The notes below the pieces were generated by a model that was not told where the DNA came from, did not search any database, and worked only from the letters and a program-made list of their open reading frames with translations. DNA of 64,000 bases, from positions 2,017,890 through 2,081,889 of the forward strand of contig NZ_LUKD01000001.1 of the NCBI RefSeq assembly GCF_001592745.1, given 5' to 3'. Both the position numbers and the translations under genes were made by a program. Source of the stretch: Bdellovibrio bacteriovorus (GTDB lineage Bacteria; Bdellovibrionota; Bdellovibrionia; Bdellovibrionales; Bdellovibrionaceae). Positions 34,837-36,858 of this stretch are shown piece after piece. Every line of letters begins with the position of its first letter. The stretch's first letter is position 1.

Positions 34837-35787
34837 ATGAATAAAGGGCTTTTGCTCGCAGCTCTTGTGACTTGGACTTTCGCGGCCCAAGCACAAACGT
34901 CTACCACGACACTTTCAACGACTTCTTCAGCCCCAAGCTCTGAAGTGGTGACTCAAGAATCCACAATGAAAGTGGATAGCGTTCTAAAGAACAAAAAATT
35001 CGAAGACGATAAAGACATCACAGATTCTCGTTTGAAAGCAGATTCTGGATCTCTTTCAAGATATTCCCTGAAATTTTCTTTGTCTTACTATGGTCCTCCG
35101 ATCGGTGACCTTTCCAACAAAAAACAACCAAATCCAGACGGTTCTATCGGGAACAACGACACCTCATTGAGCGGTTCTATCAGCGGTCGTTACCGTCTTG
35201 ATAGCAAAAGCGCGATCAGCATGGGGACGGGTGTTAGTGCTTTGACGCCTTTCCACGGTTCCGAGCGCACGGATGTAAAAACACCGTTTGTGAACTATGA
35301 CCGCAACACGCGTCTGGGTGACGTACAAATGAGAAACTCTTACGGAGTTTCTGTGACGACAGTTCAAGAGTACATCGACGTGGGTCAGTATGCGACTTTA
35401 AGCTACGATAACTCTTTGGTTTACAACTTGGGTGCCTCTGGCTTTGCAGTAGGTATGGATGCCAGCTTAAGCTACTTCCTTTACAATCGTGATTATCAAG
35501 CTAAAGACCGCACGGCGGGTCGTTACTACCTAGGCTGGTATCCGCAAGTGAAGTACAATGTGACAGACAAATTCAACATGTACACTTCAGTTGCTGTTGG
35601 TTTCACAAACCCACGTGCTCGTGAAGATCAATTCGCTATGTTGAACAGAACAACAAGCCAACGCCTAGGTGCAGGTTACGCCTTCACTCGTGACATCTAT
35701 CTTTCAACATTCCTAAATTTCTACCCCAAAGATCTAAGAACAGAGTCTACGACAGTCAGCTTCTCTACCGTCTTCTCGATCCTGTAG
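34837..35787 (+). CDS. predicted outer-membrane beta-barrel protein
   Basis: The 316-residue product has a signal peptide (cleavage after AQA, residue 19), a Ser/Thr-rich disordered stretch and, from about residue 75, repeated amphipathic strands such as YSLKFSLSYYG, SGSISGRYRL and MYTSVAVGFT. Short turns and aromatic girdle residues suggest a barrel of 10-12 strands; the C-terminus does not end in the usual Phe. GGGAG lies before the ATG. Function unknown; a strong terminator follows. Confidence 0.7.
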   Translation: MNKGLLLAALVTWTFAAQAQTSTTTLSTTSSAPSSEVVTQESTMKVDSVLKNKKFEDDKDITDSRLKADSGSLSRYSLKFSLSYYGPPIGDLSNKKQPNPDGSIGNNDTSLSGSISGRYRLDSKSAISMGTGVSALTPFHGSERTDVKTPFVNYDRNTRLGDVQMRNSYGVSVTTVQEYIDVGQYATLSYDNSLVYNLGASGFAVGMDASLSYFLYNRDYQAKDRTAGRYYLGWYPQVKYNVTDKFNMYTSVAVGFTNPRAREDQFAMLNRTTSQRLGAGYAFTRDIYLSTFLNFYPKDLRTESTTVSFSTVFSIL

Positions 35788-35826
35788 GTGCCTGCTTCTT
35801 TTTTGGGTCTACACCGCGTAAAAGTA

Positions 35827-35856
35827 AAAAGGGAACTCATTGAGTTCCCTTTTTTA
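35827..35856. terminator. strong bidirectional terminator
   Basis: GGGAACTCA and TGAGTTCCC form a perfect 9-bp stem with a one-base centre (in practice a 3-5 nt loop), with AAAAA before and TTTTTT after. It ends the barrel-protein gene. The rest of 35857-36023 has no ORF; AATCG-CTG-CGATT followed by T6 near 36000 is a weak second terminator. Confidence 0.9.
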
Positions 35857-36023: not shown

Positions 36024-36050
36024 TCAACTCTACAAAGGTCCAGCCGATAA
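36024..36050 (+). promoter_or_regulatory. sigma-28 (FliA) promoter
   Basis: TCAACTCT (36024-36031), an 11-nt spacer and a perfect GCCGATAA (36043-36050). The FliA consensus is TAAAGTTT-N11-GCCGATAA; TCAA is a common -35 variant in other bacteria. Transcription would start near 36057, 13-14 nt upstream of the ribosome-binding site at 36069-36074. Confidence 0.7.
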
Positions 36051-36080
36051 GTTTACTACCTTGAATGAAAGGAGCCTTGA

Positions 36081-36170
36081 ATGGCGAAATCCAAAGTAGT
36101 ACGTCACGAATATATTCTTAGTCAGGAGATTCGTGAATTGGCTCTACACAGGGAGACAGGTCCACCTTGA
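36081..36170 (+). CDS. 29-residue micro-protein in its own transcription unit
   Basis: The frame starts at ATG 36081, six bases after a strong AAAGGAG, and encodes a short basic then amphipathic peptide (MAKSKVVRHEYILSQEIREL plus nine residues). It is enclosed by a FliA-type promoter ending at 36050 and a strong terminator at 36198-36230, giving a transcript of about 175 nt. It has no signal peptide; residues 8-22 could form one helix. No family recognised. The transcript might instead act as a small RNA, but the ribosome-binding site argues for translation. Confidence 0.6.
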   Translation: MAKSKVVRHEYILSQEIRELALHRETGPP

Positions 36171-36197
36171 AAGAATAATTAAAAGGTGAAATTGGTG

Positions 36198-36230
36198 AAA
36201 CCAGAATCGACAAGGGATTCTGGTTTTTTT
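36198..36230 (+). terminator. strong terminator of the micro-gene
   Basis: AAACCAGAATC, a seven-base loop, GATTCTGG and seven T. It lies 28 nt after the micro-ORF stop and four bases before the stop of the convergent Nudix gene. Confidence 0.92.
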
Positions 36231-36234
36231 ATTT

Positions 36235-36858
36235 CTAATTCTGCGGTCCCAAGCTGCGCAGCCGATTGAGCAGATCAATCACCATCATGTAGGTCAGTCC
36301 CCACAGTGGTGGATCACGATCTAAATAAATCGCAGGCAAGTGGTGGTCATGACCGTTGTCACGTTTGATCTTATAATGTGTCTGCCTTTGCGGATTTTGG
36401 ATCTCTTTCAAAGGAATCCAAAAGAAGTCGGCGACTTCGGATGCATCTAGTGTCAGCGCAAAATCACGATTCGTATAAAAAACAAAAGGACGAATATAAA
36501 AATCCAGCATGGAGCCCGCTTTGCGTGCCTGGACATCGTCCAGTCGACCTAACAATTCATCCACGGTTAGATCGACTCCGACTTCCTCTTTTGTTTCGCG
36601 AAGCGCGGCATCTAAATCGGTCTTATCATAGTTTTCACGTATACCGCCGGGAAACGCGAGGTGACCCGCCCAGCGATCTTCGGGGTGAAAAGCTCTTTGA
36701 ATAAACGCAATCTCTAATTGTTCAAAAGAGTGTCCGCGCAAGATCGCAGCGACACATGCATGACGTGTCAATTTGGATGCAAGATCCACGGGAGGTTGAG
36801 ACTGAAAAAGAGAATGAAGTATGTCTTTCAAGGTAAAATCCTTCGCAAGTTCTATCAT
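36235..36858 (-). CDS. Nudix hydrolase (CoA-pyrophosphatase type)
   Basis: The 207-residue enzyme cleaves a nucleoside diphosphate linked to another group, probably CoA or a derivative. The Nudix box begins at GG (71-72) and ends REtkEEvG (87-94), and the upstream AGHLAFPGG is the motif typical of NudL-type CoA pyrophosphatases. No clear ribosome-binding site precedes the ATG at 36858. Confidence 0.85.
   Translation of the reverse strand: MIELAKDFTLKDILHSLFQSQPPVDLASKLTRHACVAAILRGHSFEQLEIAFIQRAFHPEDRWAGHLAFPGGIRENYDKTDLDAALRETKEEVGVDLTVDELLGRLDDVQARKAGSMLDFYIRPFVFYTNRDFALTLDASEVADFFWIPLKEIQNPQRQTHYKIKRDNGHDHHLPAIYLDRDPPLWGLTYMMVIDLLNRLRSLGPQN

Follow-up and report, generated by a model that had tools for sequence, protein, structure and literature searches.

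SgrS/SgrT is a dual-function RNA, in which a small protein is encoded on an annotated small RNA (sRNA). Like RNAs of this type, the predicted transcript of a micro-gene that we analysed in a 64,000-nucleotide stretch of the Bdellovibrio bacteriovorus genome (contig NZ_LUKD01000001.1, positions 2,017,890 to 2,081,889; the whole stretch is hereafter called the window) is short and abundant, combines a Shine-Dalgarno (SD) sequence with an open reading frame (ORF) and is constrained at the nucleotide level. It differs from them in that our search recovered no recurrent base-pairing target, the constraint falls on bases within the ORF and the encoded peptide is unrelated. The micro-gene occupies positions 36,024-36,230 of the window, and from a comparison of coordinates we conclude that APsRNA5, an RNA of B. 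bacteriovorus HD100 listed as non-coding (Karunker et al. 2013, PMC3627812), is a messenger RNA (mRNA) orthologous to that of the window's gene.

APsRNA5 was reported as a 176-nt RNA with 388,842 reads per kilobase per million (RPKM) in the attack phase and 73 in the growth phase (PMC3627812, table 2), a ratio of about 5,300-fold; in that table it ranks second, behind merRNA. It was listed with no database homologue and with potential secondary structure. The authors discarded sRNA candidates with blastX hits, a filter that a 29-residue ORF of this kind, absent from databases, would pass unnoticed. Within the open literature searched, APsRNA5 is named only in that study, where no function is stated. 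Our genome G006 can be equated with HD100 in its coordinates, because its cyclic di-GMP-I (c-di-GMP-I) riboswitch (Rfam; 1,073,868-1,073,951, minus strand) falls inside the published coordinates of merRNA (1,073,741-1,074,185, minus strand). In the same genome the orthologous ORF (605,512-605,598, minus strand) is enclosed by APsRNA5 (605,441-605,617) on the same strand. The two thus share a locus, a strand and, on the published data, attack-phase specificity; however, APsRNA5 as published is non-coding, lacks a FliA promoter and is known from one strain, whereas the window's gene would give rise to an mRNA that is conserved in the whole genus and in three sister genera, and a promoter of the sigma-28 type lies a short way upstream of the mapped end. 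The preliminary description of the locus, made from the window alone, had predicted a transcript of about 170-180 nt, which agrees well with the 176 nt of the RNA made by HD100 in the motile attack phase; a transcript from the orthologous site therefore exists in a relative. merRNA resembles APsRNA5 in being short, attack-phase-specific and massively expressed in the same study, but it carries a c-di-GMP-I riboswitch, whereas the window's transcript matches no Rfam family, an Rfam search of the window having returned no match.

A conserved coding unit

A search with the 29-residue product recovered exactly one copy per genome in all 24 genomes of the genus Bdellovibrio, and a DNA search recovered the unit in 23 of the 24. 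The sister genera g6, g8 and g13 were added by a profile search, which brings the total to 33 Bdellovibrionaceae genomes; there, too, the ORF is preceded by a sigma-28-like promoter. Outside these 33, the 369 genomes of the phylum yielded just one marginal match (E 0.005). A pattern scan of named genomes returned Bdellovibrio and Bdellovibrionaceae records (e.g. B. bacteriovorus strain kdesi), as well as four actinobacterial matches and one from a 'Geobacter' (L108); the last, having neither SD nor promoter, looks like chance and was rejected as a homologue.

Several features of the alignment point to a protein-coding gene. Among 22 distinct sequences from the genus, the ratio of non-synonymous to synonymous change (pN/pS) at codons 26-29, which encode TGPP, is only 0.04 (pS 0.61, pN 0.02). 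The other reading frames contain stops, and the length differences among orthologues, located near the N-terminus, amount to whole codons, with the SD and the start retained. Since TGPP is nearly or fully invariant while its codons drift, and since length changes remain in frame, the peptide itself is under selection. The reading frame is conserved above its surroundings in related genomes, in keeping with the coding status proposed in the preliminary description.

The homologues share the core E-[IL]-[RL]-E-L-x4-[EG]-[TV]-G-P-P at fixed spacing, with E16, E19, L20, G27, P28 and P29 invariant, variable N-termini and, in some cases, residues that trail the two prolines (PPG, PPN, PPVG or PPMG before the stop). 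Searches of Pfam, NCBIfam, PHROGs and the PDB returned no relative of the peptide, so the earlier remark that no peptide like it had been described still stands, and judged by these comparisons the ORF defines a peptide family that had not been described. AlphaFold2, run on an alignment headed by a 30-residue orthologue, predicts a helix at residues 3-20 followed by a tail (mean predicted local distance difference test score, pLDDT, 73). The sequence with which attack-phase proteomics of HD100 could be searched for the predicted peptide is MAKKHVVRKEYIWNREIRELALLTETGPP. In g8 and g6 (L071, L072, L088-L091) a smaller conserved ORF, M-x(0-3)-[RK]PDI followed by a stop and equipped with its own SD, lies between the promoter and the ORF ending in ETGPP. 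The window's genus is without it, its start context seemingly being used by the ETGPP ORF, and a strict pattern found no such micro-ORF beyond g6 and g8.

The promoter, the AAAGGAG, the ATG, the 29 codons and the terminator all lie exactly where the preliminary description had placed them. The features of the unit and its neighbours are as follows (window coordinates; identities are mean pairwise values within the genus).

36024-36031, plus strand: -35 box TCAACTCT of the sigma-28-type promoter, read directly; identity 0.92
36032-36042, plus strand: promoter spacer of 11 nt, ACAAAGGTCCA; identity 0.85, versus about 0.5 upstream
36043-36050, plus strand: -10 box GCCGATAA, read directly; identity 0.95
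36057-36080, plus strand: predicted 5' leader of the transcript, placed from the promoter position
36068-36074, plus strand: SD sequence AAAGGAG, six bases ahead of the ATG, kept in nearly all members of the genus
36081-36170, plus strand: 29-codon ORF encoding MAKSKVVRHEYILSQEIRELALHRETGPP, ATG at 36081, TGA at 36168-36170
36096-36110, plus strand: codons 6-10, GTAGTACGTCACGAA, with little synonymous change (pS 0.19); they form the upstream arm of an inverted repeat that does not covary
36125-36140, plus strand: GGAGATTCGTGAATTG, last base of codon 15 through codon 20, pS 0.06
36153-36167, plus strand: codons 25-29, C-terminal ETGPP, residues kept and TGPP codons free
36197-36231, plus strand: intrinsic terminator GAAACCAGAATC...GATTCTGGTTTTTTT, stem at about 36197-36227 with 12 pairs and a T tail; similar terminators in the genus
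34837-35787, plus strand: gene for an outer-membrane-like protein (named from its sequence), with its own terminator at 35826-35854
36235-36858, minus strand: gene for a Nudix-like hydrolase (named from its sequence), convergent to the micro-gene

In 19 genomes of the genus the unit is aimed at the outer-membrane-like gene; in three others, that of the window and those of two close relatives, it has the opposite orientation, the mutual orientation of the neighbours being unchanged. Because the inverted segment comprised the promoter, the ORF and the terminator, all of which stayed intact, the gene can be regarded as self-contained, as had been suggested from the window alone. Taking the coding selection and the inversion of the whole unit together, the region is, on comparative grounds, a real and independent micro-gene.

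Other attack-phase RNAs of HD100 deserve mention here. APsRNA6 and APsRNA7, likewise filed as non-coding but equipped with FliA promoters, contain SD-preceded ORFs of 89 amino acids (membrane-protein-like; L058, 1338600-1339600) and 73 amino acids (lipoprotein-like; L059, 3416400-3417100), respectively, and may be mRNAs too. The string CTGGACCT lies upstream of APsRNA2 and APsRNA3 (L056 and L057), once at about -53 in the former case and twice, at about -52 and -30, in the latter.

Nucleotide-level constraint within the reading frame

Codons 16-20 (GAG ATT CGT GAA TTG) show hardly any synonymous change (pS 0.06), and codons 6-10 show a pS of 0.19, versus 0.82 for codons 11-15 in between. Codon preference is not the cause, because the choice of the glutamate codon is fixed by position (GAA at 10 and 19, GAG at 16 and 25). 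The synonymous tests count related species as separate, so that the absolute probabilities are overstated, with the contrast between adjacent blocks unaffected. These substitution patterns indicate that the RNA has a further function at the nucleotide level. Most species have the motif GGAG at -10, +44 and +71, with 1.50 per ORF versus a synonymous expectation of 0.22, a pattern that would suit binding of CsrA or pausing at internal SD-like sites, although neither would be universal. In the window's genome csrA adjoins a flagellin-domain (possibly hook-associated) gene (G000:C1:1959363-1960649). The arrangement GGAG-N9-TTG could also provide the start of a nested peptide of 10 residues with ETGPP at its end, L20 being always TTG in the genus; with TTA at this position in several members of g6, such a start would be genus-specific at best.

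These patterns bear on the alternative that it is chiefly the RNA that acts, either by sequestering an RNA-binding protein such as CsrA or by base-pairing with targets, and that the peptide is an independent second product. We consider this account possible rather than probable. The frozen synonymous positions, the GGAG enrichment, the presence of CsrA in 65 of the 66 genomes of the family and the extreme RNA level in HD100 (PMC3627812) are all consistent with it, as is the inverted repeat UCACGAAU/AUUCGUGA, which folds in the window's RNA and in most species can hold the mid-ORF GGAG in its loop. However, as a conserved hairpin this repeat was rejected: 86% of cells are paired, but compensatory changes are absent, RNAalifold gave no consensus and the pairing is broken in several species. 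The downstream GGAGs are likewise missing in several species, and genera that lack the gene have CsrA too. A search for perfect 12-nt antisense matches to the frozen block found only scattered sites, none of them conserved beyond sister species, and TGPP is selected as a peptide. The dual-function idea raised in the preliminary description thus gains indirect support from the frozen positions but none from a conserved helix or an antisense target.

Promoter and proposed mode of action

The -10 box and the 11-nt spacing match sigma-28 perfectly. TCAA-N15-GCCGATA has seven exact matches in the 3.76-Mb genome, where roughly two would be expected, and the full set of 16 fixed promoter bases is unique there; the string by itself is weak evidence, and it is conservation that settles its reality. 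Compared with identities of 0.44-0.54 on the immediate upstream side and 0.61 on the downstream side, the two boxes and the spacer between them form an island of conservation in the alignment. At the same 11-nt spacing, g8 has TCAACTGG-N11-GCCGATAA and TTAACTCG-N11-GCCGATAA, and g6 has TAAAGCCC-N11-GCCGATAG and TAAAGTCC-N11-ACCGAAAG, the canonical TAAAG of the -35 box being present in g6; a flagellin gene in the window's genome carries TAAAGGCT-N11-GCCGAAAG. The spacer at 36032-36042, (M)CAAAGGTCCA, is conserved about as well as the boxes and differs from other sigma-28-like sites of the genome; it is perhaps a candidate site for a regulator or another additional protein. As a motif shared by a regulon it proved uninformative (309 near-matches on both strands versus 231 for a reversed control). 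A minus-strand sigma-70 promoter inside the ORF (TTCACG-N17-TATATT) was discarded, its -10 box not being conserved.

The explanation that in our judgement combines the evidence best, and that is probably correct, is a sigma-28-driven attack-phase mRNA that encodes a trans-acting peptide and carries an extra RNA signal. Sigma-28 (FliA) would activate the gene as part of the attack-phase programme, giving a monocistronic mRNA of roughly 175 nt in free-swimming cells, from whose strong ribosome-binding site a cytoplasmic, soluble peptide of 27-31 residues would be translated. With its short helix and stiff TGPP tail, the peptide would act in trans by docking on a putative partner abundant in the attack phase, as suggested by the fixed core and the near-invariant TGPP, and the signal in codons 6-10 and 16-20 would regulate the mRNA or act in its own right. 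Genome comparison establishes the gene unit, the selection on its coding sequence, the constraint at the nucleotide level and the identity with APsRNA5; what we infer is that sigma-28 is needed, that translation is abundant, that there is a partner and that the peptide has this role in the cell. The most likely role, as far as the predicted structure can guide us, is that of a helical, trans-acting small protein of the attack phase; nothing specific supports the motility regulator, anti-sigma factor or export-related peptide that had been suggested earlier.

Several observations weigh against this explanation. The -35 box TCAACTCT agrees with the canonical TAAAGTTT at just five of eight positions. 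In HD100 the mapped 5' end of APsRNA5 falls within a leader hairpin, 24 nt beyond CCGATA, whereas a sigma-28 start is expected at a distance of about 7-12 nt from the -10 box and the FliA-flagged sRNAs of the same study begin 8-12 nt from it; a FliA promoter was not flagged for APsRNA5 (PMC3627812). High abundance of the RNA need not mean abundance of the peptide, and the AlphaFold2 model is one of moderate confidence (predicted template modelling score, pTM, 0.31).

The distant 5' end reflects either processing or a different start, and in the latter case the gene would be real but its transcription would depend on a different sigma factor or begin elsewhere, with GCCGATAA conserved for another reason. 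The missing FliA flag and a spacer conserved as strongly as the boxes would fit such a scenario, which we nevertheless hold to be unlikely: both boxes and their 11-nt spacing persist across genera, up to the canonical TAAAG in g6, and the mapped end falls in the 3' arm of the leader hairpin and is not preceded by a -10-like sequence at a suitable distance, which fits processing. The leaders of the orthologues in G006, G010, G012, G016, G021 and G035 all form 5' hairpins of mutually unrelated sequence, which possibly stabilise an abundant message.

The C-terminal PP, the fixed spacing between EIREL and ETGPP, the free N-terminus and the second micro-ORF of the sister genera also recall ribosome-arrest peptides, and ETGPP might accordingly stall its own ribosome, for control in cis or to hold ribosomes. 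ApcA, ApdA, ApdP and CruR (PMC12992588, PMC10951233) are similar in being small ORFs that end in -PP and have a fixed C-terminal core; the window's peptide, by contrast, has T/V-G-P-P without arginine, no regulated gene downstream and an N-terminus predicted as a soluble helix. Arrest of the RAPP/RGPP type requires the arginine, AAPP being inactive (PMC12992588), and in all homologues its place is taken by threonine or valine. The PP, moreover, need not end the peptide, and in both orientations of the unit the terminator is followed by a convergent gene. A leader peptide or attenuator was rejected on account of the unit's own terminator and the lack of a co-directional gene, and since there is nothing downstream to regulate and the arginine is absent, arrest at GPP seems very improbable. 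That the RNA is non-coding and contains the ORF only by chance, as the first listing of APsRNA5 with its potential secondary structure and no database homologue implied, is hardly credible, being already contradicted by the codon-level data, that is, by selection on TGPP as a peptide, length changes in frame, a conserved SD and start, and homologues in four genera.

Significance for the attack phase of Bdellovibrio

Returning to the trans-acting peptide and its RNA signal, we can offer, tentatively and with more doubt than confidence, a bolder version: the attack-phase transcript could be at once the mRNA for a new family of 29-residue trans-acting peptides and a regulatory RNA acting through its synonymous positions, the two jointly holding the predator in, or releasing it from, its non-growing hunting state. 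On the comparative evidence, the hugely expressed 'non-coding' APsRNA5, listed since 2013, encodes a conserved peptide under extra nucleotide constraint, and peptide and RNA signal together represent a testable candidate for running or leaving the hunting phase in Bdellovibrio. Other attack-phase sRNAs on the same list may be small-protein genes as well.
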